Positions 42,301 to 62,750 of a DNA stretch of 64,000 nucleotides are shown here, piece by piece. The notes under the pieces were generated by a model. It searched no databases. It saw nothing but the letters and a program-made list of their open reading frames with translations, and was not told the DNA's origin. Source of the stretch: Owenia fusiformis (lineage: Eukaryota > Annelida > Polychaeta > Sabellida > Oweniidae); contig CAIIXF020000012.1 in the NCBI GenBank assembly GCA_903813345.2, forward strand, positions 25,990,184-26,054,183. Reading direction: 5' to 3'. How positions within the stretch are numbered: the stretch's first letter is position 1; the number at the start of each line of letters is the position of its first letter. The translations under genes and the position numbers were made by a program.

Positions 42301-45300
42301 GTGTTATAAACGAGACACCAGGATGATAAAGTAGGGGTACAATATATGTTTAGAAAATTAGGGCCCAAATCTTGAGAAAGAGTCGGAGGCATGCGAGGCG
42401 AATCCTGGAAACTCGGGTTCGGGAAAGCGGGGTTCACTGTTTGGTTCCGTTGACACCTGTGCGAAACTACATTCATAATTTATCCGACAGTCGCTTTGAT
42501 AATGTTTCTTTATCTCGTCTGCGACTCGATAAAGAAGAATTATTAAATCTCATTAAGAATGGACGATCTTGCACAGGTACTCATATAAGAACCTCTATAT
42601 CTTTTTAACACCAATATATAACGGAAACACTATGTTAAAAATAAAATGTTATATCTAATGTGCCAATTTAATGATTTAGCATATCGAAAATATTTTCAAC
42701 CTAAGTGACCACATCGTGACATCACTTAGGTGGCAACATTTTTCATTGTCAATCTTTTCTAAATATGCTAAACTTAAAAAATGAACCAATTTTGACTGTC
42801 TAACCAGGTTAAAAGGATGAATATGTTTTTAATATGAGTTTACCATTGGTTTCTATGAGAATTAAAATTTTGAAATGCATCTTTCCCTGAACCACTTTCA
42901 TGCATGGATGAGTTCATTGCTCGCTCATCTATCAACCAATTTTCTTGATTTTGTCGGCAACAAGATCGCTGAATAAAATAAAGGATAGTCTATAGAAGAC
43001 TTTTATTTTCCCCCAAAACTTAGACAATATTTGACTTCTAACAAACGGCGAATTATCGAAAACAAACGGCGATTTCGGACACTCGCTCCCTGCTATTGAA
43101 AGCCCAGAGTACATGGGACTTGCTTTTTAGAACTTTTTGTTGGCTCTACTGCTCAGGTGTAAGTTGAACCATTTTTGCGGGCCCGTTTTACAGTAGGTTT
43201 AGCTTTTTGCCAAACCTTTTTTTCATAAGATAATTATTCAGTTCCAAGTTCAGTTCAGTATGGAAGGCCTGTCCTCTAACTTAATGTAACAGAAAAAAGA
43301 ATACTAAGCCAATTAAACATCAATTGCCACACAGGAAGGTAACTTGGCATGGTGCTAATATTACCACCTCTCATAATGGTCAAGATTACTCTGTCATACA
43401 AGACACTTACATCATGATCTTGGTACCATTTGATGGAGAATAAATCAGGCTTTTTACTACTACCTTTGTATTTTATCAAAACTGCTTAGGATTCTAGTAA
43501 TTTGGATTTGAAGTTTTGTATACATTTTTGTGGACGCCCTGTAGTACCCTACAAGGTTACAAAAGGGAAGTATTGTTTTGAGGACGCTGGCATCCCGTGA
43601 ATGAATTCGTACGCAGGCCCGTAGACAGGATTTGCCAAGGGGGGGGGGTTAAATTTTCAAAAATTTCCAGGGGGTTCACATTTGACAATTTGGCCCAATT
43701 ATAGGTAAAATCACTTGAGAAGTGCTCAAAATGGTGAAAAATGCATGATTTTGAAATAATTTTTGGCCAGGGTGGTTCACCCGAACCCTCAGATTTCGGA
43801 AACATGTGATGTTTATCGTGCACGTCATGGAGATTTAAGATACTCGCCAAAATTTCATGCACCCAGATGCTTCGCTATTTTGTTGCGATGACATTATTAT
43901 ATTATACTATTGTTAAAACATTTTCCATAGATATTCTGCATAGTTGTCTAATTAGTTATAGTAAGCATGCAGGTGCTAATAATAATTATTACTAACTCAC
44001 CAGTATATCATATTACTACTAAATTAAAAATATAAATCCTGATAATAGTAGCATGGTCATCGACCCAGAGCGTACAATTTTATTTTAAAATGGTATTATG
44101 TTTCATAAGCAAGCAAATGAATAATGCTTGTCACCTACTTCGTTTTTTTATTATTCTTTATTCAATTTTAGTACATACAAAATACACATGTTTTTTTTAT
44201 TATCATTATTTATTTATTTCATTGATATAGTTAAAAAATACACATGTAGTGACTGCCAAAGTTGAAAACATTGGTGGCAGTTTAATTCGATTCGTTTTTA
44301 ACGTGCTATGGAAGTTAACAGGAAATGACAAAACAGGAAATGACAATTTTTTTTGCATTTTTAGACATTTTTTGAACAAAGATAACAGAGTTCTGGTTTG
44401 ACCTCCAGTCAATTTAACTAGTTCCAAATACCATTTACAGGTCCAGGATCACAATGTTCATGGTCAGAATGACCATAAACATGATGAAATAACCTTTTTA
44501 GCCCTTTGAAAATGTGACTGAAAAATAGCTAAAAGTAGGAGCGTAGGGAAGGTCACTGAACAGAATCTTTTGAATTTTTCAGAAAATGTGCCGAATATAT
44601 TGCTCTAAATAATACAATCTTTGAAAATTTGATATCATTCATAGAAAAAGAAAAAAATGATTTGAAAAGCGATCTATTTTTCTTTTTATGACCGCTATTT
44701 TTGTTTAAGACAATTTTCTAAAATTTCAAAGATTGTATCAGTTAGAGTATTATATTGGGCACATTTTCTGAAAAATTCAAAAGATTCTGTTCAGTGACCT
44801 TTCCTACGCTCCTACTTTTAGCTGTTTTTTCAGTCACACTTTCAAAGGGCTAAAAAGGCTATTTCATCATGTTTAGGGTCATTCTGACTATGCACATTGT
44901 GATCCTGGTCATGTAAATGATATGTGGAAATAGTTCAAAAAATGTCCAAAAATGCAAAATTTTTTGTCACTTCCTGTTTCGTCATTTCCTGTTAACTTCC
45001 ATGGCACCTTAACCAAAGCTGATCAATGTTGACCCAATGTCGGGTTAGAGTACAGTATGCGATTTACAGTAAGAACATGTTCCATTCAAAAACCCGATCG
45101 AGAGAATAATCTCATAAATAATGTCGTTTTATGATTTTTAGTCTAGAAAAGTCTTGAAAACAAATATTGAAAAATAATTCAATGAGAGCAGATTGAAAGA
45201 CTCATAACTGTTGAATAATACTATCTCCTTTACATCTTCTCTCATTAAAGTTTCAGCTGGTTCAGCACCATCATTCATTCGCATCAATATCACCATAATA

Positions 45301-48300
45301 TCGATATTATCATTATAACTTGCACCTTGTAAATCAAAGATTTACTTTGTTGATATCATATTGAAATATGTCGTAGTCGTTGTCTCAGGATGATGAACCA
45401 TTTTCGTTTTACCATTGATTAATATTTCATATTGCACTATGTAAAATGCCCAGATTAATACAATATAAGAAACATATGATACACACATATAAGTTGTTTT
45501 AATACAGTTTAATCTGTTATCATAGGTTTAGGTATCAGACAATATTACTATATCAGTCTCCACCTGCTTATGATAGATATAAAGGACTTTCTATATTACA
45601 CTATGTAAAATGCCTAAAATGCCCAGATTAATACAGTATAAGAAACATATGATACACACATATAAGTTGTTTTAATACAGTTTAATCTGTAATCATAGGT
45701 TTAGGTATCAGACAATATTACTATATCAGTCTCCACCTGCTTATGATAGATATAAAGGACTTTCTATATTACACTATGTAAAATGCCTAAAATGCCCAGA
45801 TTAATACAGTATAAGAAACATATGATACACACATATAAGTTGTTTTAATACAGTTTAATCTGTTATCATAGGTTTAGGTATCAGACAATATTACTATATC
45901 AGTCTCAACCTGCTTATAATAGATATAAAGGACTTGCTATTTCTACTTCTGTCAGAGTTTATTTCGAATTATTCCCTTGACTGTTGATTTTTACTCGTCT
46001 CTATTCCCTCTACTTCATTTAATTAAGTTTTGGATTTTTATAACATTTCCAGCGTGCCTTTAACAGAGCTGAGCTAAAAAGAGTCGATAGTAAAGCAAAA
46101 ATGGCCATTATGATGAATGTCATTCTTGAACAGTGCTCACCAAAACAATTTTTAGAATCTTGGGGGCTATTATTTTCGTAAATCCAGCCAAAGATCTTTG
46201 CAAATGGAAATGCAGCTAACCCAACCAGTGTTAAAACCAATCCGAATTTCTGTGAAAATTCGTTCATTCCAAAAAACTCTGATATGGTTATCGGTGTCAT
46301 TACAGATATAAATCCAGTCGATACGCTAGACATTATAGAAAAACACACCAATGCTACGAAGCTTTGATTGAAAAATATAAGTATAATTTGGGCCACCATC
46401 ATCAGAAAAGATGCAAACACCAGCACTGATGAAATGCTAATAAATGGTAATCTCTGTTTAAGAAAATCTGGGATTATCCCTCCAAGTAACCTAGCTAGTG
46501 TATTTGCAATTGGAACGATTAATATTAGAGTAGATGACGTTGCCTCAAGATGTGCTGATTTTGCAATAGTTGTGATATTAGCAGACAATGTCAATCCTAT
46601 GCCTTTAATGATAATCACAACCCAGAGCAAGAAATGAAATTTAAATGTTTTCACCATCTGAAAACACGTCATGTGTGTCAATTCATCATAACACGTTGTT
46701 GGTCTACTGCTTTTGGAATACTTTTGATATAAAGGAGTCTTATCATTTAGCTTGTTAACTTTAGCGTTTGTTATATTATCATCAATAGCTTTGACACTCT
46801 TTTCTTTCTCAATAGCGGTTTCATTCATCGTCACATTAGTCCCATCTGCAGCGTTTACTTTCGATTGCTCTCCCTCGTTCTCAAGAGGTATGGGTGTCCC
46901 CACTGGGGGTACCTTTTTAAGAAATCCTGCGCCAAGAACATTTTCGCACCCCGCCCATATGGATAACATAATAAAAAAGCCACCAAGGTTTTGATTTTGT
47001 TCGTCGGTCACGTGGCCTTGGACAAAGAATCCCTGATAGATAAGAGCAAATATTAGCGGACTGCCACCAAACATAGCACTTGCAAAACCGACAAATTTAC
47101 CTCGATGCTTTCCTCCAAAGTTGATTGAAATTGTTGACATGCTCGTCATATAGGTAAAACAACAGCCAGTAGAAGCTACGAAGTATATCAAACACATTAA
47201 CCAGCTCCGCGATGCAAAGAACGAAATGAATTTAGTTGACATCCACTCTAATGCGAAAGAAGGAGAGCTGAGTATAGCAGCTATAACGCATGCTGATCTT
47301 GGTCCATATTTGTCTATGACTACTCCGCTAAAGTATGAAGTTAGTTCCAATCCTGCTATTCCACTGACGGTTATGTACTCCAGTTCTGTTTGTGTGTAAT
47401 TAAAAGTCTGTTTAAGAGCAACGGCGTATATATTGAATCCATTTATAATTCCACAAAACACAAGTCCCAGTATACCTACACATAGTGAAATATATCTCTG
47501 TATTTCCATTCGATTATTATGCTCCATCTTTAATTTTTGATATCCAAATTTAATTTAATCTTTAATTTTTGATATCTAAGTTTATTTTGTTATGAATTAC
47601 AGTAGCCCATTACTTCTTTAATTTTTCTATATCTGTAATTTTATTCTTTTTACCCAGTAGTTACCGGATTCGTCTTATGAGTTGATACCATTGTTAGATC
47701 GTACTTTCAAGTGTATATTTCACATCTTTCCTAATAAGCAGTTAAGAACAGTGTCAAACGACACTGCAGTAGCAATGAGGATTCTTACTACATACTATCT
47801 ATAGTATATAAAGGTCTATTATTAATTCATCGACCTGTATTTAAACAGAGTAATACAGAACATATAATACAGAGTGGGCAAAAATCGGAAACTCACATAT
47901 TAAAAGAGCAGATATGAACCAAATGTCAGGAAAATCGGGGAGTTTAAAGTTTGAACATTTCTGTTCATGTATGTAAATCTCAAATCAGACAATGCAAGTT
48001 TTCATTATTTTTGTGACTATTGCCCATTCTGTGAACAGTTACAGTTGTTTAAAACATATTTACAGTTTAGTGAGATCATGTATCTATAACATGTATCACT
48101 TTAATGTCCAGCATGTTTGTTGTTGTTGAGTCACTTAGGATGACATTGTGTGGATTCTATTTGAAATACAAAGTCATGTCGGAATATGGGTGGTGTTGCC
48201 ATCACAATCAAATGTAACGTACTCCAGAGTGCCTCGATAAAAAAGTTACAAGTACATAATGGTCAATATCTTTTATAACAGCATTAATCCTAAAAAATGA

Positions 48301-51300
48301 ATTGCATGCTTAGAGAGCAAGTTATCTCAATTAATTTGACACCAGCAGATTTAAAATGTTTCCATGGTTGACTACACACGTCGGACTAGATTTAATTGAA
48401 TCATATATGTAACATCTGACTATCGCATGCAGTTATTTGAAATAGAATGTTCAGATAGCCTGGAATCGGACACACCTTGCCTAGCTATGTGTGAATTATT
48501 GCGCATTTAACTAATTGATTTGATATTTATAAATTCCATTCGTGTACAATATGAATATATTTGTCCATATATTATGATACCGTGATCTATTGTTTCCTTA
48601 ATGTTTTAGGTTTTCTTGGCGAAAAAAAACATTGAAATGGACTATATACAACGACCAGATTGATTAATTAATACGAAATTGTAACCGATTATTTATTTAT
48701 TAACGGGAAATGAGCAAACTGGCGCATGTGTTCACTCTGTCAGATGAAATAATAAGAAATTAGTATAGGAAGCTGGTACATCTTCCATAGTATTAGGTTG
48801 TTTATATTGCATCTTATAAAAACAGTTATGACGTGCACGGCCCGAGGACAATCCAGGAAATACGGGCTAATGTCCGTTTTAAGCGTTAATCCCTGCCTTT
48901 TTAAAAAACTAACTCTGTTTATATATCATTTTGAAGTATATTTTATTCGCATTTCAAAATCAATTTCGTTTCATAGCATGTTTCATCTCAGTCTTCATTT
49001 TATATCAGTCTCCACCAGTTATTAAATATAGATATGAAGGTCAGGTTGTGGACGTCTTCTATTTTGGTGAATTTGAAAATGTGACTATTTGTTTCAAAGT
49101 TACCATATTTCCTCTATTTCCTCTACTACCTTTGGTTAAGTTTTGGATTTTTATAACATTTCCAGCGTGTCTTTAACAGAGCTGAGCTAAAAAGAGTCGA
49201 TAGTAAAGCAAAAATGGCCATTATGATGAATGTCTTTCTTGAACAGTGCTCTCCAAAACAATCTTTAGAACCCCGGGGACTATTATTTTCGTAAATCCAG
49301 CCAAAGACCTTTGCAAATAGAAATGCAGCTAACCCATTAAGTGTTAAAAGCAATCCGAGTTTCTGTGAAAATTCTTTCATTCCAAAAAACTCTGATATGG
49401 TTATCGGTGTCATTACAGCTATAAACCCAGTCGATACGCTAGACATTATAGAAAAACACACCAATGCTACGAAGCTTTGATTGAAAAATATAAGAATCAT
49501 TTGAGCCACCATCATCAGAAAAGATGCAAACACCAGCACTGATGAAACGCTAATAAATGGTAATCTCTGTTTGAGAAAATCTGGGATTATCCCTCCGAGA
49601 GACCTAGCTAGTGTATCTGCTATCGGAATAATGAGTATTAAGGCGGATGACGTTGCCTCAAGATGTGCAGATTTTGCAATAGTTGTGATATTAGCAGACG
49701 ATGTCAATCCTATGCCTTTAATGATAATCACAACCCAAAGCAATAAATGAAATTTAAATGTTTTCACCATCCGAAAACACGTCATATTTTTCTCTTCGTC
49801 ACTACATGTTGTTAGGCTATTGTTTTCGGATTCCTTTTGAAATAACGGAGTCTTATCATTTAGCGTGTTATCTTTAGCGTTTGTTATATTATCATCGCTT
49901 GCTGTAACACATTTTCCTTTCTCGATATCATGGTCAATAGCGGTTTCATTCGTCGTCACATTAGTTTCATCAAAGTTTTGTTTCGAGTGCTCTCCCTCGC
50001 ACATGAGAGGTATGTGTGTCTCTACTGGGGGTACTATTTTAAGAAATCCTGCGCCAAGAACACCGGTGCATCCCGCCCATATGGATAACATAATAAAGAA
50101 GCCACCAAGGTTTTGATTTTGTTCGTCAGTCACGTGGCCTTGAACAAAGAATACCTGATAGATAAGAGCAAATATGAGCGGACTGCCACCAAACATAGCA
50201 CTTGCAAAACCGACAACTTTGCCTTGATGCTTTCCTTCAAAGTTAAGTGCAATTGTCGACATGCTCGCCATATAAGTAAAACAGCAGCCGGCAGAACCTA
50301 CAAAATATATCAAACATATCAGCCAGCTCCGTGATGTAAAGAATGAAATGAATTTAGTTGACATCCACTCCAATGCGAAACAAGAAGAGCTGAGTATAGC
50401 AGCTATAACGCATGTTGATCGGGGTCCATATTTGTCTATGACTACTCCGCTTAAGTATGAAGTTAGTTCCAATCCTGCTATTCCACTGACGGTTATGTAC
50501 TCCAGTTCTGTTTGTGTATAATTAAAAGTCTGTTTAAGAGCAACGGCGTATATATTGAATCCATTTATAATTCCACAAAACACAAGTCCCAGTATACCTA
50601 CACATAGTGAAATATATCTCTGTATTTCCATTCGATTATTATGCTCCATCTTTAATTTTTGATATCCAAATTTAATTTAATCTTTAATTTTTGATATCTA
50701 AGTTTATTTTGTTATGAATTACAGTAGCCCATTACTTCTTTAGTTTTTCTATATCTGTAATTTTATTCTTTTTACCCAGTAGTTACCGGATTCGTCTTAT
50801 GAGTTGATACCATTGTTAGATCGTACTTTCAGGTGTATATTTCACATCTTTCCTAATAAGCAGTTAAGAACAGTGTCAAACGACACTGCAGTAGCAATGA
50901 GGATTCTTACTACATACTATCTATAGTATATAAAGGTATAATATTAATTCATCGACCTGTATTTAAACAGAGTAATACAGAACATATAATACAGAGTGGG
51001 CAAAAATCGGAAACTCACATATTAAAAGAGCAGATATGAACAAAATGTCAGGAAAATCGGGGAGTTTAAAGTTTGAACATTTCTGTTCATGTATGTAAAT
51101 CTCAAATCAGACAATGCAAGTTTTCATTATTTTTGTGACTATTGCCCATTCTGTGAACAGTTACAGTTGTTTAAAACATATTTACAGTTTAGTGAGATCA
51201 TGTATCTATAACATGTATCACTTTAATGTCCAGCATGTTTGTTGTTGTTGAGTCACTTAGGATGACATTGTGTGGATTCTATTTGAAATACAAAGTCATG

Positions 51301-54300
51301 TCGGAATATGGGTGGTGTTGCCATCACAATCAAATGTAACGTACTCCAGAGTGCCTCAATAAAAAAGTTACAAGTACATAATGGTCAATATCTTTTATAA
51401 CAGCATTAATCCTAAAAAATGAATTGCATGCTTAGAGAGCAAGTTATCTCAATTAATTTGACACCAGCAGATTTAAAATGTTTCCATGGTTGACTACACA
51501 CGTCGGACTAGATTTAATTGAATCATGTAACATCTGACTATCGCATGCAGTTATTTGAAATAGAATGTTCAGATAGCCTGGAATCGGACACACCTTGCCT
51601 AGCTATGTGTGAATTATTGCGCATTTAACTAATTGATTTGATATTTATAAATTCCATTCGTGTACAATATGAATATATTTGTCCATATATTATGATACCG
51701 TGATCTATTGTTTCCTTAATGTTTTAGGTTTTCTTGGCGAAAAAACACATTGAAATGGACTATATACAACGACCAGATTGATTAATTAATACGAAATTGT
51801 AACCGATTATTTATTTATTAACGGGAAATGAGCAAACTGGCGCATGTGTTCACTCGGTCAGATGAAATAATAAGAAATTAGTATAGGAAGCTGGTACATC
51901 TTCCATAGTATTAGGTTGTTTATATTGCATCTTATAAAAACAGTTATGACGTGCACGGGCCCGAGGACAATCCAGGAAATAAGCGTTAATCCCTGCCTTT
52001 TTAAAAAACTAACTCTGTTTATATATCATTTTGAAGTATATTTCATTCGCATTTCAAAATCAATTTCGTTTCATAGCAGGTTTCATCTCAGTCTTCATTT
52101 AATATCAGTCTCCACCAGTTATTAAATATAGATATGAAGATCAGGTTGTGGACGTCCTCTATTTTGGTGAATTTGAAAATGTGACTATTTGTTTCAAAGT
52201 TACCATATTTCCTCTATTTCCTCTACTACCTTTAGTTAAGTTTTGGATTTTTATAACATTCCCAGCGTGTCTTTAACAGAGCTGAGCTAAAAAGAGTCGA
52301 TAGTAAAGCAAAAATGGCCATTATGATGAATGTCATTCTTGAACAGTGCTCTCCAAAACAATCTTTAGAACCCCGGGGACTATTGTTTTCGTAAATCCAG
52401 CCAAAGACCTTTGCAAATAGAAATGCAGCTAACCCATTAAGTGTTAAAAGCAATCCGAGTTTCTGTGAAAATTCTTTCATTCCAAAAAACTCTGATATGG
52501 TTATCGGTGTCATTACAGCTATAAACCCAGTCGATACGCTAGACATTATAGAAAAACACACCAATGCTACGAAGCTTTGATTGAAAAATATAAGAATCAT
52601 TTGAGCCACCATCATCAGAAAAGATGCAAACACCAGCACTGATGAAACGCTAATAAATGGTAATCTCTGTTTGAGAAAATCTGGGATTATCCCTCCAAGA
52701 GATCTAGCTAGTGTATCTGCTACCGGAATAATGAGTATTAAGGCGGATGACGTTGCCTCAAGATGTGCAGATTTTGCAATAGTTGTGATATTAGCAGACA
52801 ATATCAATCCTATACCTTTAATGATAATCACAACCCAAAGCAATAAATGAAATTTAAATGTTTTCACCATCCGAAAACACGTCATATTTTTCTCTTCGTC
52901 ACTACATGTTGTTAGGCTACTGTTTTCGGATTCCTTTTGAAATAACGGAGTCTTATCATTTAGCGTGTTATCTTTAGCGTTTGTTATATTATCATCGCTT
53001 GCTGTAACACATTTTCCTTTCTCGGTATCATGGTCAATAGCGGTTTCATTCGTCGTCACATTAGTCTCATCAACGTTTTGTTTCGAGTGCTCTCCCTCGC
53101 TCATGAGAGGTATGTGTGTCTCTACTGGGGGTACTATTTTAAGAAATCCTGCGCCAAGAACACCGGTGCATCCCGCCCATATGGATAACATAATAAAGAA
53201 GCCACCAAGGTTTTGATTTTGTTCGTCAGTCACGTGGCCTTGAACAAAGAATACCTGATAGATAAGAGCAAATATGAGCGGACTGCCACCAAACATAGCA
53301 CTTGCAAAACCGACAACTTTACCTTGATGTTTCCCTTCAAAGTTAAGTGCAATTGTCGACATGCTCGCCATATAAGTAAAACAGCAGCCGGCAGAACCTA
53401 CAAAATATATCAAACATATCAGCCAGCTCCGTGATGTAAAGAATGAAATGAATTTAGTTGACATCCACTCCAATGCGAAACAAGAAGAGCTGAGTATAGC
53501 AGCTATAACGCATGCTGATCTTGGTCCATATTTGTCTATTACTACTCCATTAAAGTACGAAGTTATTCCAGATCCAGCGATTCCACTGACGGTTATGTAC
53601 TCCAGTTCCGTTTGTGTATAATTAAAAGTCTGTTTAAGAGCAACGGCATATATATTGAATCCATGTAAAATTCCACAAAACACAAGTCCAAGTATACCTA
53701 CACATAGTGAAATATATCTTTGTATTTCCATTCGATTCTGTTCCATCTCTAGTTTTTTATTTTTGTAAGAATAACAATAGCTTTGTCTTCTAAATCTCCA
53801 AGGAACGTTTTTCCTATGTCTTTTTATTCTGGTATTTACATATTATTAGTCAAACGATGGCTCGATGTAACATTTGCATTGAAAAAGCTCAAGTATTTTC
53901 GACAAACTACTACTGACTAGATAAGGGCTTTTTTCGTATGACCTCGGTTACGCAAGTTAATTTAATGTGGTTGCACAGTATTTTTTTATGTTTAACACAG
54001 CGGCATTTGGCACATGTAACCATAATCTTATTCTTGCCAATTCTTACGATTAAAATCTTGTCCGTGGTTAAAAAGCATGTACAAAAATACAGGCATACAA
54101 TGTGGTAACTTGCACCCGTGATAGCATTGATTAACAGCAAGTTATCCTGGGCAAGTGATTGAGATACTTACTGGTATTCAATGATATAAAATCATAATGT
54201 ATTTAAGAAATGTGTAGACCGAAGAGCAGGGGTCATATCGACGAATACAACCCACAGGGCTAGGCACAAATGAGTGTGGGGCTCGAAAGCTTTTTTCTTC

Positions 54301-57300
54301 GCCCTAAGATGTGTATTCGTCGATATTACACCTGTTCTGAGGTGTATATTACGATTCGGACAAGAAAACTCACCAACATTTTTCGAGTATTCATTTAATG
54401 ATCCGCCATTACTACAGTCGACCGTTATGACGTCACAAATTACTTGTATTAACGGGGGTAGTGTTGCCGAATATACCCGGGGTGAAATATTGACTTAATG
54501 CCTAGGTCACATAGCCGCCGGGCGCCGGCCGATGAGTAGTCATCGGCCGATTTCTAAATCGACCGGGCGCCGGTGACTTTTCACCGATGTCTTGATCTAA
54601 TCGTGAGTTTGGTCACATTAGTGCAGGCATCGTACGGCGCCCGCAATCAATTGAATCTGAAACACATCGCAAGGCTATCTGCCGATGGCCGTACGGCACC
54701 CGCCAGGACATCGGTCGATCTACAGGCCTCTAGATTTATACTAAATTTTTGTATGACCCAGTATGACTGTTCCACATGGCGTGAATGTAAGATTTGAAAA
54801 CGAAATACTTCGATAGACAGGACTTCCAGTATAATAATGTTTTCATGCAATACAAATCAGAAAAAGAAGATCCTCTTTTGAGTATAAATAGGTTCAATAT
54901 TTAGAAAAAATGCTGACAAGGGGTCCCTATTCATATTTTTTCAAATGGTTTGATTGATATTTTTACTATCATGGGTACTTCAATTGAAAGAAAACATATT
55001 GTTTTAATAAAAACACTATTTATGCCCAGAAAGTACTCATGGTGAAAGATATGACCGTCTAAATTCACTTGCCATACTGCACGTGGTCTTTTCATCAAAG
55101 TGCACCCTGACCTTAATTCATTTTTAGATCTTTCATATAAACAAATACTATGTCTAACTGTCCATCCGATGCTATTAGCAAAATCTTTCTTTTGTCTGTT
55201 CTCGCAAAGAGAATTTGTTTGGTCATAAAAATATGGCCTATCTTCAAAGAACTTGGCAATTTTTTCTTCTACAGTATTTCATCAAGTGGAATACCCTCTT
55301 CCCTAGACACATCTAAATCTTCACCATCCACCAGCTCACTAGCATTGTTATTGCCTTTTTCCACCTGTCTTCTCAAGGCCTTCCTCATATATGGCCCATT
55401 GGCCTTATCCCCTCTATCCTTAGCCTTTGGCATATTAACCTTCGTATTAAAATTGTGACCCTTGAAAATACTGTACTCACAAAAACATTCAGAAGATTTT
55501 TTAAATAAATGATTTGTAATGTTATATGCATGAGTGAATATACGCATAAAAATGTATCACTCTATTCAATGTGTATGACAGACATACCCGATTAATGTCA
55601 ATATAAGAACGACTAGATAAACCTATCCACCCACCCATTCAAATGTGTGTCATTGTTTTACAGTAAGCCTAATCGTTCCATTTATGTTTTGTAAAAATCT
55701 CTGACAGTGTGTAGTAATTACAATTCCTTACCTCATTATTTTTAAAACCTTTATATCACTTTATAAGTAATCATTATTAAGATTTATCAAACAAATCATT
55801 ACGCAAAATCCCAAGATGACCGTGCGATGCCACCGGGCGCCGTAAGATGGTGGAGAGGTTAAGCTTTGCATATATAATCGAAACTGAACCTGTACGTATC
55901 ACTCGACCATATACAAATTCATGTAGCCTTCTCATATAAATAGCCGTTCAAATCCAGTGTTTGTTTAGACTACACCATAGCGTGTAATGATTCTATAGTA
56001 TGTCATTGATGCGGTTTTATAGCTGGTTTTCTAATACATATTTTAAACGACCTCGTTTCGTAAGATTTTTGGCGATAAATCATGCATGACATACATCATC
56101 GTGTTCAGCAAGAATTCAACTGTACATCGAAATCAAAATTGACAGCATAGTGTTCAATAGACACGAGTAAAATGGTTCCCGTTGACCCAACGTCAAATAT
56201 TCAAATCTCCCGTCCTAAACCCGAAACTCTGAAGCTGAAAGAGTATCTGAAGTAGACTAAGCGCGCATAAAACTATGAGCGCTCGATACATTCCTTTGTT
56301 AATTTTTGCACTTTGCGTTCACGGTTACGTTGTGAAAAACATCGTTAGCTTAACCTCTCCAATCATACGATGACCGGACGGGACACGGCCGGGTAGGTAC
56401 CGATGAGTTTGGTTGAGAAAAAATCGCCAAGACATCGGCAACTTTTATCTCCGGGATAAAACTCTGCCGGCGCCCGTACGATGTCTAAAAATCGGCCGAT
56501 GAGTGGCGATCATCGCCCGGCGCCCGTACGATGCCCAGGCTCGCCGGCCGATTTTGAACAAAATACTCATCGGCCGGGCGCCGTAGTAAAAATCGGAGCC
56601 TATGTGACCAAGGCATTAATGTTCACAGTTTATAGAAGGCGTGAATATAAGATGCCGTGGTCACATTTGCTCCAATTTTCAGTACACAAGGGTTTTCAAA
56701 TGTACAGGTATAAAGGGTAGGAGGTCCTGTCAAATTATGGTCCCACCAAATTATGTTTCTACTCTTCATTGATTTATATGGTGACCTCTTTCCTTTATTA
56801 TCTTATACACAATCAGGGCCATTGAGGCCTGTTAAGAAGAGGGGGGCATAATCCCTGGGGGACCATCATTTCTTTCACATCGGCACCCGGCCGATGATTA
56901 TGAAGCCAAAAAATGACATATAAACTATACGTTATACCTAAAGATAATAAGCTTTTTCAAATTTATTTAAAGGGACAAAGTGCGTAAATTAAGTGTCACT
57001 TTTGATTTTCATAGTATTTCCAATGGATTAATAAGTATCTGATCTTTCATTTGACACTAAAAACAGCTCAAACAGACCACATCAGAGTTGACACTAAATC
57101 ATGAAAAAATTACCCTGCGTGCAAAACATTATAAACAATTATGAAGATTTTTAAAATTAAAACCAGATAGTTCTCCACATGCTTTTTTCATTACAGGTTG
57201 ATCTTTGGTTGACATTTAACGAGCCATTTGTTGTATGCTGGTTGGGTTATGGAGTCGGTGCCCACGCTCCCGGAATCAAGGAAGCAGGAACAAGCACTTA

Positions 57301-60300
57301 TGAATGCGCCCACACAATTATCAAATCTCACGCCAAGGCCTGGCACACTTACGATACAAAATACAGAGCAACTCAGAAAGGTAAATATTAATGCCAAATT
57401 GATGCTGGTCCAGTCATTGCTGAAATGATTAGAATTCTATTTTCTCTGCTCCAAACAAAGTAAGCAGTCCAAAGCTGACCAATCATAAGAAAATGTACCA
57501 CCTAATTAAGGCAATTGAAATGTAACCATGGTAACCATAACATAAACACGTTTAGACAATATGGAATGAAAGTTCGAAGATATATTGCCATAATGTTCCT
57601 CTACAATCTGTAGCAATTTCATTACAAAAACCTAAATCTCTTAAAATTAGGGTATTTGTATCTTTACTTTCCGGACACCCTGTATATATAAATATACCTT
57701 CAACCCTGAAGGACTACGAGCTTTGAATTAAATAAGAGTTTTGGATCTTTTTTGAAAATAGACGTGACATGGAATGTAATAAGAGCAAAGAAATATTGTA
57801 AACTTGTATTTTATCGTCCCTTAAATGTTCGACCCTCGCAGAATATTTCTCATTTCAGGCAAGATAGGGATTACTTTGGATTCCGACTGGAAGGAAGCCT
57901 TTAATGCAAGTAACCCGGATGACGTTGCTGCAGCCGACAGAGCCATGCAATTCAAACTCGGATGGTGGGTAGATAATCATATTTCTGTTTTAAAGGGTCA
58001 TAATCTGTAATTCCGATCCAAATTCACCATATTTGTAAATAATTGCAGGTTTACCCATCTCATATTTATAGGCATAATTGCAGGTTTGCTCATCCCATAT
58101 TTGTGTACAAATGACATAATTGCAGGTTTGCACATAAAATATTTTTACATAATTGCAGGTTTGCCCATCCAATATTTGTAAATGGGGACTATCCTGAGGT
58201 TATGAAGGCTGCTGTTTATAATAAGAGTATGGCTCAGGGCCTTGATGCCTCTAGACAGCCATCTTTCACTGAAGCCGAGAAACAAGAAATTAAAGGTAAT
58301 GTAATGAATCAAGCATTATAAAAACATAAAGTTTGATCTAGGATCATCATAGATACATGAATATGGCTGGTATGTGTTGAGCTACATTTAACAAAAGTTA
58401 TGTCGAAAACATGGTGAAGAATGCATATATTTACTGAAGGTAATAGTGCCAACCTTTCATTACCTAGAACTATACGTCCTCAGTAGTTGTGTCACAGAAG
58501 TGGTGACATATTGTTAGAGTCTCCAACTTGTTTGTGGCGGTTGTTGTTCAGCATTTGATGTTTGGTGTTTGGAGTATGTAGTAGCGTTCGGTGGTCGTCG
58601 TCTGTAACAAATGGCAGTGAGGTGGTGACATTTTGCCTTGTTTGTTCTTAATGCTGGCACTAGCTATCATGACATCACCTTTCCATCTCACGATTACACA
58701 CGATTGGATCACATCTGTTGCTGAAATGACACCAGGGCGCCACGGGGAAAATGCCGGGGACTAAGTGCTCTACCGACTGAGCTATAAAGCTACGTTCACA
58801 GTCACACCAACGGCGCTTTGATGGCGCTTTAAAGCGGCTTGTAAAGCGGCACCAAGGCGTAACAAAGCTTGATTAAAGCGTCGGGGTCGTATTAGGTCGT
58901 AGAAAAGCTCGGAGAAAAGCATATTCGGCAAGAGCGCTAAAAAGTTAAACTGTTTAAGCTACGTTCGCACCAACGGCGCTTTGATGGCGCTTTAAAGCGG
59001 CTTGTAAAGCGGCACCAAAGCGTAACAAAGCTTGATTAAAGCGTCGGGGTCGTAATAGGTCGTAGAAAAGTTCGGAGTAAAGCGGGATATTCGGCAAGAG
59101 CGCCAAAAAATTTTAAACTGTTTAAAAATTTTGGGCGCTCTGATACGAATTGATTAAAGCGCCGAGAGCGTATCAAAGCTTAACAAACCGTAACAAAGCT
59201 CATCAAAGCTTGACCCAAAGCATAGGAAAGCTTAACAGAGCTTGGTTCAAAGCGGGGACCCCACTCTCTTCACGGTCTGTTACCACTTGACACGCTTCGT
59301 TAAGATGTCTCAAGATTTGCTACGATCTGGCATGAAGATCTGACACGAGGTCTTTCACGCCGTGCGTCAAACATCATTTCTTCTTCAGATAGGTCATGCT
59401 CTGGTCCATCTGGAATTTCTGGATCTTGTTGTTCTGCCATCGTGTTCTCGAGTCAAAGATGCAATGGTTTTATGGATCTACTGCATCTTTATATAGTCAT
59501 TGGATCAAACGCGGCATGAAATCGGCGATCTCGACATTTTCCAATGCGTGACAGAGCTTAACAGAGCGTAACAATGCACAACAGAGCTTGGCAATCGTAT
59601 CAGAGCCTTATTTAAAGCGTCATAATCGCATCAAAGCGTAATAATTCTTATCAAGGCTTATCAAAGCGTGATTTCAAGCGTAACAAAGCCTGGTCAAAGC
59701 GGGACCAAAGCGTGAGGAAAATATCAGAGCTATGTTAAGCTTTCCTACGCTTTGGGTCAAGCTTTTCTGAGCTTTCTTACGGTTTTCTAAGCCTTGATAC
59801 GCTTTCGGCGCTTTAATCAATTCGTAACAGAGCGCCCAAAATTTTTAAACAGTTTGAAATTTTTTGGCGCTCTTGCCGAATATCCCGCTTTACTCCGAGC
59901 TTTTCTACGACCTATTACGACCCCGCCGCTTAAATCGAGCTTTGTTACGCTTTGGTGCCGCTTTACAAGCCGCTTTAAAGCGCCATCAAAGCGCCGTTGG
60001 TATGAACAAAAATGACAAAAATGACGGCGCTTTGTTCGCCGATTTAAAGCGTGGCATTCGCCGTTGGTGTGAACGTAGTATAAAGGCTTAAGCCACTTTA
60101 AAAGCTGGGGCATAGTACCAACTTGCTGGGAAGGGTCATTACATTGCATTTTATGTTTTTGTAAAAAAGCGTGCCTTCCTATTATTGGAGAGGTTAAGCT
60201 AACGATGTTTTTCACAACGTAACCGTGAACGCAAAGTACAAAAATTAACAAAGGAATGTATCGAGCGCTCATAGTTTTATGCGCGCTTAGTCTACTTCAA

Positions 60301-61991
60301 ATACTCTTTCAGCTTCAGAGTTTCGGGTTTAGAACGGGAGATTTTTAAATTTGACGTTGGGTCAACGGGAACCATTTTACTCGTGTCTATTGAACACTAT
60401 GCTGTCAATTTTGATTTCGATGCACAGTTGAATTCTTGCTGAACGCGATGATGTATGTCATGCATGATTTAGCGCCAAAAATCTTACGAAACGAGCTCGT
60501 TTAAAATATGTATTAGAAAACCAGCTATAAAACCGCATCAATGACATACTATAGAATCATTACACGCTATGGTGTAGTCTAAACAAACACTGGATTTGAA
60601 CGGCTATTTATATGAGAAGGCTACATGAATTTGTATATGGTCGAGTGATACGTACAGGTTCAGTTTCGATTATATATGCAAAGCTTAACCTCTCTTTTTA
60701 GGTACCCATGATTTCTTTGGACTGAACCACTACACGACACAGTTGATCGAACCTAGAGATTGGGAATTCGAGAGTTGGGAACAAGACCAAGAGGCTAAAG
60801 AGATCAGGGATCCTTCATGGCCAGAGTAAGTAGGGAGAGCGACCAATAGAGGAATACACTGGTGGACATACGTGGTCTCCTGCCCCATTTTTCTATTTTG
60901 GGCATTAGCTTCGACCTTTATTATTTTAAAATTAAGCGTCTCTAGTGACCTTCAGATAAAAAGACCGATAATGATTCGTCAATACGAATTCTTAAACCTA
61001 AATAAGTGGGGTTTGTAGAAAAAACCGGGTACCGGGCGTATTATTGGACTGTGGATTCCAGTCTATCTACACTTGAATGGTAAATTCTACAATGATAAGT
61101 TGTATCTTCTTTCCTTCCTTCTGTGTTACAGCTCAGGCTCTGATTGGCTGAAAGTCGTTCCATGGGGATTACGAAAGCTATTGAGCTTTGTGAAGGATAA
61201 CTATGGCAACCAGGAGATCATCATCACTGAGAACGGTGTATCCATACAGAGTAATACCAAGGAAGACGCACTGAACGATCAAGCCAGAATAGACTATTAC
61301 AGGGGGTACATAAATGAAGTCCTAAAAGGTATGTCGAATATAGTGTATATATCACTGGCAGATTCAGGGGGGGGGGGCATGGGACCCGGGCACTCTACTT
61401 TTTGTGTGGGCCCAGAAAAAATGATCAGGGCCCAAAAATTTGCAGAGCCTCAAAAATGGGCCTTTTTGGGCACAACTTTGCCTTCAAAATTTGGGCCCAA
61501 TCTTTGGTTTAATTTTTTTCCTGACTTGAAATGTTGCCCCCCTTGTTAGCTTTTGGATCCGCCAGTGTATATTATGTCAAATAGGGAGGACGTTTTACAT
61601 TCCATAGACGTACTTTAAGAAGATATCTATAACATCTGAACATTGCAACTATCACAGCACAATTATTATTTCTATAAATTTGTATGTGCATCTGAAATAT
61701 GCTATTTCAGCTATACGACTGGACAACGTAAACGTTATCGCATACACAGCCTGGTCTCTACTGGACAACTTCGAATGGTCCAGGGGATATGCAGAGAGAT
61801 TTGGACTTCATTACGTTGACTTTGATGACCCTGCTAGACCAAGGACAGCCAAGGAATCTGCGAAATACATCAAACAGCTGATCAAAGATCACGGGTTCCC
61901 CGATACGTCAGGAGGGTCAAAGAAACAAGGGAGTGCTATTGTTGGACTGTGTAGCGTTCTTGGTGTTATTCTTCTGAAATTGTTCAATTAA
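33367..61991 (+). CDS. GH1 beta-glycosidase paralogue, 528 aa, ten exons
   Basis: Exons: 33367-33535, 34845-34975, 38238-38332, 39861-40023, 57197-57380, 57859-57964, 58159-58295, 60702-60825, 61132-61328, 61711-61991. All introns are GT-AG; phases are 1,0,2,0,1,2,1,2,1. The total is 1587 nt in one open frame. Start: ATG at 33367, with signal peptide [22 protein letters not shown]1 hallmarks: YQIEGAW (Gln ~48), YHWDLP (His ~150), acid/base Glu ~195 in TFNEP, nucleophile Glu ~403 in ITENG, DNFEW (Glu ~457). The C-terminal Ser/Gly/Lys linker then hydrophobic end ([15 protein letters not shown]) suggests GPI or membrane attachment. Two introns (3 and 6) are absent from the minus-strand paralogue, and intron 4 is 17 kb and holds three MFS genes. 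A retaining beta-glucosidase/galactosidase by family; substrate unknown. Confidence 0.93.
33598..33740. mobile_element. Near-perfect foldback MITE (GGTCACATTTGCTCC family)
   Basis: tgccgtggtcacatttgctc and its reverse complement bracket a palindrome of about 140 bp with arms ccgatgagtattttgttcaa and ttgaacaaaatattcaatcg. TAA flanks both sides. In GH1 intron 1. Confidence 0.8.
34992..35487. mobile_element. MITE with ctaacaccccagtcacattt inverted ends
   Basis: A perfect 20-bp terminal inverted repeat (34992-35011 and 35468-35487). GC-rich subterminal cggc/gccg arms can pair, and an internal cagtcacatttcccacggc lies at about 35096. It starts only 16 bases after the exon 2 donor of the plus-strand GH1 gene. 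Confidence 0.85.
35575..37720. repeat. Large foldback in GH1 intron 2
   Basis: The left arm (about 35590-35912) and right arm (about 37445-37690) match as reverse complements, for example gagaataactttgtact/agtacaaagttattctc and tgatatcaactgtttcaacc/ggttgaaacagttgatatca. The frame at 37482-37880 reads through the arm and is not a gene I can support. Confidence 0.6.
37930..38052. repeat. Second deletion derivative of the 505-bp element
   Basis: It carries tacgtatgaccaat, acaaatgcat and gtgaaaaacattgcaagctt, as at 29262-29397. Its gagagttt and aaactcc ends are inverted. Just upstream of GH1 exon 3. Confidence 0.55.
38411..38577. mobile_element. MITE with gtattcgcgaatgc inverted ends
   Basis: Left gtattcgcgaatgcag and right tgcattcgcgaatac are inverted. 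The inner arms ccggattaacctgctatttt and agtagattaatccgg, and the two actcattta/taaatgagt pieces, extend the stem. It lies in GH1 intron 3. Confidence 0.8.
40164..43552. mobile_element. Candidate 3.4-kb TIR transposon in GH1 intron 4
   Basis: Left end ctacagggcgtccacaag and right end tttgtggacgccctgtag are inverted. Homology continues inward for about 60 bp (gtatac..acttcaaa..actagaat). The CAGGGcGTCCACA start resembles Tc1/mariner ends. No complete transposase was recognised. The interior holds nested fragments: a GCC-family end at 41303-41365 and a TATCACACC-family end at 41405-41436. Confidence 0.55.
41303..41365. repeat. Solo end of the 2.1-kb GCC element
   Basis: gatttagaaatcggccgatg through cctaggcatt matches, as reverse complement, the first about 63 bp of the element at 54498. 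Confidence 0.7.
43615..43800. mobile_element. Second copy of CAGGCCCGTAGCCAGG MITE, 3' decayed
   Basis: gcaggcccgtagacaggatt then ttcaaaaatttccagggg and acttgagaagtgctcaaaat match 3484-3671. The right terminal repeat is lost. Confidence 0.7.
44292..45012. repeat. Foldback element of about 720 bp
   Basis: Arms of about 340 bp meet near 44660. Matches include atggaagttaacaggaaatg/catttcctgttaacttccat, gtaggagcgtaggga/tcctacgctcctac and aaagattctgttcagtgacc with its complement. No coding capacity. In GH1 intron 4. Confidence 0.8.
45425..45945. repeat. 173-bp tandem repeat, three copies
   Basis: gtttaggtatcagacaatat recurs at 45526, 45699 and 45872, exactly 173 bp apart, with near-identical sequence between. 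It lies downstream of the first MFS gene. Confidence 0.9.
46019..47527 (-). CDS. MFS transporter, nodulin-like/NFD4-like, copy 1 (502 aa)
   Basis: A complete intronless frame, with hydrophobicity consistent with 12 membrane helices. TM1 has [20 protein letters not shown], followed by the MFS loop motif D-K-Y-G-P-R (about 72-77). [20 protein letters not shown] (about 136-155) and ISEFFGM in the second half are the pattern of nodulin-like/NUCLEAR FUSION DEFECTIVE 4-like carriers (family knowledge). A charged cytoplasmic loop (about 210-285) separates the halves. Substrate unknown. On the minus strand, inside the 17-kb intron 4 of the plus-strand GH1 gene. A TTTATT (AATAAA on the minus strand) lies about 55 nt past the stop. 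This is the most diverged of the three copies. Confidence 0.9.
   Translation of the reverse strand: MEHNNRMEIQRYISLCVGILGLVFCGIINGFNIYAVALKQTFNYTQTELEYITVSGIAGLELTSYFSGVVIDKYGPRSACVIAAILSSPSFALEWMSTKFISFFASRSWLMCLIYFVASTGCCFTYMTSMSTISINFGGKHRGKFVGFASAMFGGSPLIFALIYQGFFVQGHVTDEQNQNLGGFFIMLSIWAGCENVLGAGFLKKVPPVGTPIPLENEGEQSKVNAADGTNVTMNETAIEKEKSVKAIDDNITNAKVNKLNDKTPLYQKYSKSSRPTTCYDELTHMTCFQMVKTFKFHFLLWVVIIIKGIGLTLSANITTIAKSAHLEATSSTLILIVPIANTLARLLGGIIPDFLKQRLPFISISSVLVFASFLMMVAQIILIFFNQSFVALVCFSIMSSVSTGFISVMTPITISEFFGMNEFSQKFGLVLTLVGLAAFPFAKIFGWIYENNSPQDSKNCFGEHCSRMTFIIMAIFALLSTLFSSALLKARWKCYKNPKLN
47528..49125. repeat. MFS intergenic spacer, copy A
   Basis: About 1.6 kb upstream of copy 1 and downstream of copy 2. 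Nearly identical to 50650-52231 apart from scattered substitutions and small indels, for example an insertion of about 18 bp near 48863. It should contain the copy 1 promoter. No other gene was seen. Confidence 0.85.
49126..50649 (-). CDS. MFS transporter, nodulin-like/NFD4-like, copy 2 (507 aa, hybrid)
   Basis: A complete intronless frame with the same topology and motifs as its neighbours (DKYGPR at about 72-77, [27 protein letters not shown]). Residues 1 to about 65 equal copy 1, while residues from about 86 to the end match copy 3 with only about ten differences. The C-terminus is slightly extended (KLNQR). The upstream spacer matches copy 1's and the downstream spacer matches copy 3's. 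Nested in GH1 intron 4. Substrate unknown. Confidence 0.9.
   Translation of the reverse strand: MEHNNRMEIQRYISLCVGILGLVFCGIINGFNIYAVALKQTFNYTQTELEYITVSGIAGLELTSYLSGVVIDKYGPRSTCVIAAILSSSCFALEWMSTKFISFFTSRSWLICLIYFVGSAGCCFTYMASMSTIALNFEGKHQGKVVGFASAMFGGSPLIFALIYQVFFVQGHVTDEQNQNLGGFFIMLSIWAGCTGVLGAGFLKIVPPVETHIPLMCEGEHSKQNFDETNVTTNETAIDHDIEKGKCVTASDDNITNAKDNTLNDKTPLFQKESENNSLTTCSDEEKNMTCFRMVKTFKFHLLLWVVIIIKGIGLTSSANITTIAKSAHLEATSSALILIIPIADTLARSLGGIIPDFLKQRLPFISVSSVLVFASFLMMVAQMILIFFNQSFVALVCFSIMSSVSTGFIAVMTPITISEFFGMKEFSQKLGLLLTLNGLAAFLFAKVFGWIYENNSPRGSKDCFGEHCSRKTFIIMAIFALLSTLFSSALLKTRWKCYKNPKLNQR
50650..52231. repeat. MFS intergenic spacer, copy B
   Basis: Nearly identical to 47528-49125. 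Upstream of copy 2 and downstream of copy 3. Short open frames here are not supported as genes. Confidence 0.85.
52232..53746 (-). CDS. MFS transporter, nodulin-like/NFD4-like, copy 3 (504 aa)
   Basis: A complete intronless frame with 12 predicted helices. Its N-terminal region differs from copies 1 and 2 (GILHGFN instead of [17 protein letters not shown] instead of GLELTSYxSG), and its upstream DNA beyond 53747 is unrelated to theirs, so it may be regulated differently. Its body is nearly identical to copy 2. Outermost member of the nested array in GH1 intron 4. Substrate unknown. Confidence 0.9.
   Translation of the reverse strand: MEQNRMEIQRYISLCVGILGLVFCGILHGFNIYAVALKQTFNYTQTELEYITVSGIAGSGITSYFNGVVIDKYGPRSACVIAAILSSSCFALEWMSTKFISFFTSRSWLICLIYFVGSAGCCFTYMASMSTIALNFEGKHQGKVVGFASAMFGGSPLIFALIYQVFFVQGHVTDEQNQNLGGFFIMLSIWAGCTGVLGAGFLKIVPPVETHIPLMSEGEHSKQNVDETNVTTNETAIDHDTEKGKCVTASDDNITNAKDNTLNDKTPLFQKESENSSLTTCSDEEKNMTCFRMVKTFKFHLLLWVVIIIKGIGLILSANITTIAKSAHLEATSSALILIIPVADTLARSLGGIIPDFLKQRLPFISVSSVLVFASFLMMVAQMILIFFNQSFVALVCFSIMSSVSTGFIAVMTPITISEFFGMKEFSQKLGLLLTLNGLAAFLFAKVFGWIYENNSPRGSKDCFGEHCSRMTFIIMAIFALLSTLFSSALLKTRWECYKNPKLN
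53747..54212. other. Upstream region of MFS copy 3
   Basis: AT-rich, inside GH1 intron 4. It must contain the copy 3 promoter. No motif assigned and no gene seen. Confidence 0.4.
54213..54497. mobile_element. Hairpin-ended repeat, interrupted copy (main part)
   Basis: Reverse complement of 14625-14965: tagaccgaagagcagggg, the internal palindrome, gaaaactcaccaac, and ggggtgaaatattgac. It breaks at 54497 and resumes at 56617-56645 (cacagtttatagaaggcgtg). Confidence 0.75.
55150..55435 (-). pseudogene. Decayed transposon ORF with MADF-like segment
   Basis: From ATG at about 55435 the minus strand reads [18 protein letters not shown] and on to a charged segment ending LDEIL and a stop. One frame over, directly after, it continues as [18 protein letters not shown] then NRQKKDF. 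That resembles the start of MADF/Myb-SANT-like DNA-binding domains, which accompany PIF/Harbinger-type transposases (family knowledge). A frameshift near 55270 and no downstream domain mark it as dead. It lies inside the 2.1-kb TIR element. Confidence 0.4.
55851..56358. mobile_element. 505-bp MITE, copy 1
   Basis: It begins gagaggttaagctttgcata and ends ttagcttaacctctc, giving inverted ends. It is about 97% alike by eye to the reverse complement of 60189-60695. Near one end lies a 32-codon ORF starting [20 protein letters not shown], which looks like a signal peptide. Nested within the 2.1-kb element. Confidence 0.85.
58039..58158 (+). repeat. Tandem copies of a 3' splice site in GH1 intron 6
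   Basis: ataattgcag followed by gtttgc/accca-like sequence occurs at 58039, 58074, 58116 and 58149. Only the last is used in the GH1 model (exon 7 starts at 58159). Units of 33-42 bp include copies of the first exon 7 bases (gtttgcccatccaatatttg). Confidence 0.9.
58785..60082. mobile_element. Large foldback element (CTACGTTCACACCAACGGCG ends)
   Basis: The left end is gctacgttcaca then caccaacggcgctttgatgg; the right end is the complement (ccatcaaagcgccgttgg, gtgtgaacgtag). The left arm is duplicated in tandem (58793-58955 and 58957-59110). The subterminal zones are dense in aaagcgtaacaaagcttgat-like repeats. It lies in GH1 intron 7. Confidence 0.85.
59300..59440 (-). pseudogene. Remnant transposon ORF, 46 codons
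   Basis: ATG at 59440 reads [20 protein letters not shown] and then an Arg-rich stretch before a stop at 59300. It occupies the unique centre of the foldback element. The acidic N-terminus and basic segment suggest the leftover 5' end of an element-encoded protein. No family recognised. Confidence 0.35.
60189..60695. mobile_element. 505-bp MITE, copy 2 (abuts GH1 exon 8)
   Basis: Inverted copy of 55851-56358. It begins gagaggttaagctaacgatg and ends aagcttaacctctc, followed by tttttag and then exon 8 of the plus-strand GH1 gene. The [12 protein letters not shown] runs on the minus strand from 60272. Confidence 0.85.
61345..61572. mobile_element. MITE with cactggcrgatyc ends in GH1 intron 9
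   Basis: Left tcactggcagattcaggggg and right ttttggatccgccagtg are inverted, with G-run and C-run subtermini. The gggccc/tttgggc interior is compositionally unlike its flanks. An open frame extending from exon 9 into it is intron read-through. Confidence 0.65.
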
Positions 61992-62489: not shown

Positions 62490-62750
62490 TTTTGATATTA
62501 AAATACAGCTTCTGCAATGATATTATACCATCGATATTATATTGGATCTTCTGCCATGATATTGTACCATTGAAATTATATTACAGCTTTTGCCATGTCA
62601 TTCTATTGATATTAAAATTTCTATCATGATATTTTGATATTGATATTATTTACAGCCTTTTTAATGTCATACTATTGATATTATAGCTTCTCATACAATT
62701 GATATTATAACACCTGTCATGATATTATACTATATTGATATAATAAATTA
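62490..62750. repeat. Degenerate AT-rich tandem repeat
   Basis: About six units of roughly 45 bp built on catgatattataccattgat and attatattacagctt. Not coding. Confidence 0.7.

Follow-up and report, generated by a model that had tools for sequence, protein, structure and literature searches.

A probable old mirage in a GH1 gene of the annelid Owenia fusiformis: an intron likely lengthened by tandem duplication of its own 3' boundary

Background

How does an intron come to hold three extra copies of its own 3' splice site, and did the process that multiplied them create the intron or lengthen one that already existed? The question is raised by intron 6 of a plus-strand gene for a GH1 glycosidase, a sugar-cleaving enzyme, of Owenia fusiformis, which lies in the 64,000-nucleotide stretch of contig CAIIXF020000012.1 analysed here (the window). 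How spliceosomal introns originate and grow has long been debated, few cases can be traced, and boundary duplication is a known but little-studied route of intron growth. In the lancelet (Branchiostoma), minisatellite-like duplications of intron-exon boundaries, called mirages, are described in Adh3, in the globin genes BflGb6 and BflGb9, in TnC and in PGBD5 (PMC3087553, PMC3902484); splicing is reportedly undisturbed, and mirages have been put forward as one way in which new introns arise.

In our opinion it is highly probable that intron 6 is an old, decayed mirage, that is, a boundary-spanning minisatellite with units of 33-42 bp that lengthened the intron, and that it is a case of a wider process.

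The host gene and its paralogues

The plus-strand gene is modelled with ten exons, and this model is partial. Its GH1 identity is given by exon matches to Pfam PF00232 and by the TFNEP and ITENG motifs present in the model. The features needed for the argument are as follows.

57859-57964, plus strand: exon 6 of the plus-strand GH1 gene, with 3' end GGATG, phase 2 (from the four-gene GH1 alignment)
57965-58158, plus strand: intron 6, 194 bp, GTGGGT...TTGCAG, at a position lacking in all three GH1 paralogues found
58159-58295, plus strand: exon 7 of the same gene, with 5' start GTTTGCCCATCCAATATTTGTAAAT
25066-25305, minus strand: homologous exon of the minus-strand GH1 gene, without interruption

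A re-reading of the sequence gave the same coordinates, size (194 bp), copy spacing and frames for intron 6 as the preliminary description. The intron is in phase 2 and splits the Trp codon of GW/F, at residue 275 of the partial model. The glutamates of TFNEP and ITENG, which we take to be the catalytic residues of GH1, are residues 187 and 395; the idea that extra residues at the intron 6 site would lie beside the active-site region is unsupported.

A search of the genome with the Pfam GH1 profile gave 30 exon matches in four genes, two in the window and one each on contigs C6 and C10. It had been proposed that the intron is missing from the minus-strand paralogue, and this holds, since the minus-strand gene is uninterrupted at the site. 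The C6 gene is also continuous there, and the C10 gene (L003) has a different intron, in another phase, 14 nt upstream of the intron 6 site. The position is thus absent from all three paralogues in this one genome. Four intron positions are common to all four genes. Others occur in one gene alone: alignment columns 125, 280 (intron 6) and 448 in the plus-strand gene; 154, 245, 276 and 443 in the C10 gene; 372 and 466 in the C6 gene. The positions near 242-245, 372-377 and 443-466 may each be a single intron displaced by the alignment, and the gene models have one unmodelled intron in the minus-strand gene, a doubtful donor of intron 5 in the C10 gene and partial first exons. The C10 intron at column 276, the one 14 nt from intron 6, would be either an independent insertion or a product of intron sliding.

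Among the 31 modelled introns of the four genes, a copy of the acceptor boundary above control is found in one, which is intron 6 (22/24 against 15). The other 30 have none above control, with one tie in intron 7 of the C10 gene (17/24 against 17). On the donor side of the modelled introns the best counts were 12-16 of 24, measured against a control that is blunt, as its random windows could contain the donor. The plus-strand gene has a further intron, at 38333-39860 (phase 2, 1528 bp), that is likewise in none of the three paralogues and has no boundary copies above control.

The two GH1 genes of the window also hold repeats of other kinds. An inverted repeat of 518 nt with 98% complementarity (55853-56370 and 60177-60694) has its arms in modelled introns 4 and 7, on either side of exons 5-7, and its right arm stops 7 nt before modelled exon 8. 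The two arms could pair in the pre-mRNA, affecting splicing or favouring circular RNA. A second inverted repeat, of 280 nt and 94% (58963-59242 and 59728-60007), lies in intron 7 and is perhaps a mobile element. In modelled intron 5 of the minus-strand gene there is a tandem array at 23407-24438, with periods of 135 and 283 bp and 88-90% matching.

The repeated boundary

The acceptor together with the start of the exon had been described as repeated fourfold, and indeed the 3' boundary of intron 6 recurs three times inside the intron. The parts of the array are these.

57965-58028, plus strand: start of intron 6, with no homology to the unit detected (57965-58029 tested)
58029-58040, plus strand: ATATTTGTAAAT, where the array begins on the left; the same letters stand in exon 7 at 58172-58183
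58039-58073, plus strand: copy 1, ATAATTGCAG followed by GTTTACCCATCTC...; acceptor A1, exon start would be 58049, frameshift
58074-58115, plus strand: copy 2; acceptor A2, exon start would be 58084, in frame with a TGA
58116-58148, plus strand: copy 3; acceptor A3, exon start would be 58126, in frame, 11 extra residues
58149-58183, plus strand: copy 4, the presumed true boundary; acceptor A4, followed by the part of exon 7 that is copied in the intron

The unit joins ATAATTGCAG to some 20 bases of exon 7. The four ATAATTGCAG copies start at 58039, 58074, 58116 and 58149, with spacings of 35, 42 and 33 bp, and the junction of ATAATTGCAG with GTTT occurs three times in the intron upstream of the true one. 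Allowing up to 2 mismatches, the 16-mer ATAATTGCAGGTTTGC has four matches in the 64-kb window, all of them in this array, with 0.10 expected by chance. Tandem Repeats Finder (TRF) scores the array at 131 (period 33) and 210 (period 75). Each intronic copy holds 19-21 nt of the exon-7 start with 16-19 identities, plus 11-20 nt of the intron end. On the exon side they score 14, 17 and 15; when the best of 10 unrelated pairs is taken, the 99th percentile is 12. The match of ATATTTGTAAAT is by itself insignificant, being equalled in 132 of 2000 shuffles. All units, at 33-42 bp of minisatellite size, contain CAG/GT. Intron 6 thus has the defining feature of a mirage, a tandem repeat that spans an exon-intron boundary. 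Elsewhere in the window, at 62494-62597, there is a tandem repeat of 39 bp with TATTACAG in its unit and no exon recognised beside it.

Choice of acceptor

With A1 the exon would be extended by 110 nt and the frame shifted; with A2 (75 nt) the frame is kept and a TGA is read; with A3 (33 nt) the frame is kept and stays open. All four have their final 10 intronic nt in common. Among them A4 alone restores the conserved GH1 protein, and this conservation favours A4 as the acceptor. Its pyrimidine content is also the highest, 0.59, compared with 0.47, 0.47 and 0.41 for the others; all 31 modelled GH1 acceptors, with A4 among them, average 0.64, a figure to be read knowing that acceptors were chosen partly by pyrimidine content. 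Judging from reading frames and composition, A4 would be the acceptor used and A1-A3 would be silent.

The third acceptor had been pointed out as lying 33 nt upstream and opening a stop-free stretch of 11 extra residues, and frame reading confirms this. It raises the possibility that A3 yields a second isoform through regulated alternative splicing. That A3 is in frame and open, and that it shares its last 10 intronic nt with the other three acceptors, speaks for such an isoform. Against it stand the lowest pyrimidine content of the four (0.41) and the normal splicing reported for the lancelet mirage genes in PMC3087553 and PMC3902484. Moreover, by our estimate chance would leave about one of three upstream acceptors in frame and open, so the openness of A3 is no evidence for an isoform. 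We regard regulated use of A3 as quite improbable.

Lengthening or creation of the intron

The preliminary description left it open whether tandem duplication had created intron 6 or lengthened it. The second alternative is supported by the intronic copies, which match the start of exon 7; the first is unsupported, as donor-side homology was not detected. Aligned to the unit with wraparound, the donor-side 65 nt (57965-58029) score 37.5, a value that 78 of 300 shuffles also reach, as do 73 of 400 windows taken from 40500-56900. When the alignment is forced to start at the exon GT, 269 of 300 shuffles equal it, and for local alignment to the unit 401 of 2000 do. Because these 65 nt do not resemble the unit, what the array did, as we see it, was to lengthen an intron, and its creation is unsupported.

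The preferred reading may be set out as follows. The mirage unit would consist of the last ~10 nt of the intron and the first ~20-25 nt of exon 7, and the boundary was presumably multiplied by unequal crossing-over or replication slippage. As the most downstream acceptor restores the conserved protein, the earlier exon copies would have been absorbed into the intron, with the upstream acceptors A1-A3 as probable by-products of the array. Subtracting from the 194 bp of intron 6 the 110 nt spanned by three copies leaves 84 nt; these lengths are read directly, and the history we infer from them is that an intron of ~84 nt grew by 110 nt. The exonic portion of the unit codes for FAHPIFVN and is aligned with FAHAIFKN of the C6 gene, which indicates that it is old coding sequence and that copying went from exon to intron. 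The order of the duplications is beyond reconstruction, because the copies are only 64-86% identical to the reference copy.

Birth of intron 6 from the array by tandem duplication would explain why none of the three paralogues has an intron at this position, and the lancelet globin paper predicts degenerate mirage repeats inside gained introns. Yet the similarity of the donor-side 65 nt to the unit does not exceed that of shuffles or of other parts of the locus, and by eye AATTGCAG has no evident exonic counterpart. Under the Rogers/Hellsten model both splice sites come from the duplicated segment; donor-side homology was undetected here, and fully decayed copies would escape such a search. 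In our judgement birth from the array is unlikely. Since the unit includes little intronic sequence, it is also conceivable that this sequence may be filler at the duplication junction.

Two further explanations deserve mention beside growth by boundary duplication. Intron positions restricted to one gene are frequent in this GH1 family, which would suit an introner-like or transposed element that brought its own acceptor repeats. The repeat, though, holds exon sequence of its own gene, and the 437-bp stretch has a single match in the 498-Mb genome, namely itself, in a search that skips very common words; dispersed near-identical copies serving as introns elsewhere, the mark of introners, were not found in that search. 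Such an origin is in our view very improbable. We give practically no credence to an array produced by faulty assembly or by fortuitous resemblance within AT-rich DNA: four matches to ATAATTGCAGGTTTGC were reached in 0 of 100 shuffles, the copies are unlike in sequence and in spacing, differences that a stutter artefact would not yield, and nothing in support of this explanation was found.

Boundary arrays elsewhere in the genome

Three nearby copies of TTGCAGGT gave 203 matches in the genome versus 38 for the reversed word, which holds a CpG; three nearby copies of TTWCAGGT gave 508 versus 306 for a reversed word without CpG. By raw match counts the enrichment of splice-like words in arrays is weak and varies with the control word. 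Single TTWCAGGT words number 65,041 versus 54,007 reversed, which suggests that about 17% of them are real junctions.

Two samples of arrays, from the first listed contigs (C1-C8), were read individually. Sample 1 comprises the 17 arrays separable among 100 listed of the 203 TTGCAGGT matches. Sample 2 comprises 20 of the 21 arrays separable among 100 listed of the 508 TTWCAGGT matches, leaving out C3:12291120, whose unit resembles a repeat also present near position 24740 of the window. An exon-like frame at the array edge, called by eye and not blind, is seen in 23 of the 37. We then asked whether the exon edge recurs in the units, against an array-specific null that keeps the search-word bases and the copy number, with a cut-off of p<=0.01. 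A single threshold for both junction sides had given 19/37; it favoured 5' arrays, in which the exon side shares six bases of the search word. With the array-specific nulls in its place L044 and L053 were removed, and the count is 7/17 for sample 1 and 10/20 for sample 2, 17/37 in total, as follows.

3' boundary arrays (n=12): L029, L034, L036, L038, L043, L048, L050, L052, L055, L057, L058, L060
5' boundary arrays (n=5): L033, L037, L040, L046, L056

Of the 17 flanking exons, 8 match a protein family at E<=1e-3. These are an importin alpha exon (Arm family match; PDB E 1e-20), tyrosine phosphatase and ankyrin genes, UPRTase, SSF and GMC oxidoreductase, as well as 7tm_3 (under the curated cut-off) and CRAL_TRIO (just under it). 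The remaining 9 have an open frame by eye: a Pfam search at E<=1e-3 gave nothing for the exons of L034, L036, L038, L040, L046, L058, L052, L056 and L060, PDB and NCBIfam gave nothing for L036 and L038, and with NCBIfam L034 had no match and L040 one below threshold.

The uncounted arrays are of several kinds. By reading of frames L024 and L026 are coding repeats that do not straddle a boundary. No exon was recognised at the edge of L025, L027, L030, L031, L032 and L035 in sample 1, nor at L041, L042, L045, L047, L049 and L059 in sample 2. A Gly-rich exon abuts L028 and its copy is absent from the units (p 0.67). Also left uncounted are L039 (endonuclease V exon, p 0.046), L051 (HMA exon, p 0.018), L054 (p 0.25), L044 (p 0.34) and L053 (p 0.05).

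Set against a 17% expectation, the binomial chance is 0.016 for 7/17, 0.0007 for 10/20 and 4e-5 for 17/37; this comparison is rough, as the 17% is indirect and measured for TTWCAGGT alone, and the exon calls were not blind. By our reading, boundary-straddling arrays recur in the Owenia fusiformis genome, and the GH1 locus would be an instance of something more general. Six of the arrays (L034, L036, L038, L057, L058 and L060) are near-uniform over 50-60 intronic nt. Compared with them the copies of intron 6, at 64-86% identity, make its mirage look old.

Relation to known systems

The anatomy of intron 6 is that of a mirage, a kind already known and, as far as we have found, new in annelids: a search of the open-access literature, directed in part at annelids or Owenia, found no report of mirages in annelids. 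As described in PMC3087553 and PMC3902484, lancelet mirages are likewise tandem repeats across an intron-exon boundary, many of their units carrying AG/GT. The units of the Adh3 mirage measure 10-72 bp, compared with 33-42 bp in intron 6, and the BflGb6 unit, like ours, joins the 3' end of the intron to the 5' part of the exon. Mirages are also reported to be unstable in copy number between haplotypes; the GH1 locus is present once in the assembly. Unlike the lancelet cases, as far as these are described there, intron 6 has an annelid host, old and diverged copies, and a position specific to one gene among four GH1 genes. The erythrocruorin-linker family, an annelid one, has three matches over its cut-off within 15 kb of contig C6, one of them containing a stop; searches of the genome with COX1 and with the GFP family, the latter with a control that likewise matched nowhere, found nothing. 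Since 17 of 37 arrays straddle exon edges in Owenia fusiformis, mirages are probably not confined to lancelets.

Other systems agree with intron 6 in part. In human segmental-duplication genes (PMC2812944) the units are of ~30 bp, repeated ~4 times, and boundary repeats modify introns; those repeats differ from intron 6 in being recent, often polymorphic and backed by transcript evidence. The duplicated unit in the potato RdRp gene (PMC4974935) also crosses the 3' intron-exon boundary and holds acceptor signals, but there a new intron is reported from relatives, and here we see growth without proof of gain. The AGGT exonic duplication of Rogers/Hellsten (per PMC4974935) has AG/GT inside the repeated unit as intron 6 does; the donor side of intron 6, unlike in that model, is not detectably repeat-derived.

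Implications

It is tempting to go further and to speculate that in this annelid genome boundary minisatellites form by preference at splice junctions, and that through them introns keep growing, sliding and being newly made in a large number of genes, perhaps hundreds. GH1 intron 6, with its decayed repeats and 14 nt from an intron specific to the C10 gene, would then be a late stage. We offer this generalisation tentatively and think it rather doubtful in its full extent.

Taken alone, the GH1 locus is a modest case; the recurrence in other genes is, in our opinion, the part worth following. A genome with boundary arrays that range from near-uniform to decayed, as in GH1 intron 6, would provide a series in which intron growth, acceptor choice and possibly intron gain may be studied.
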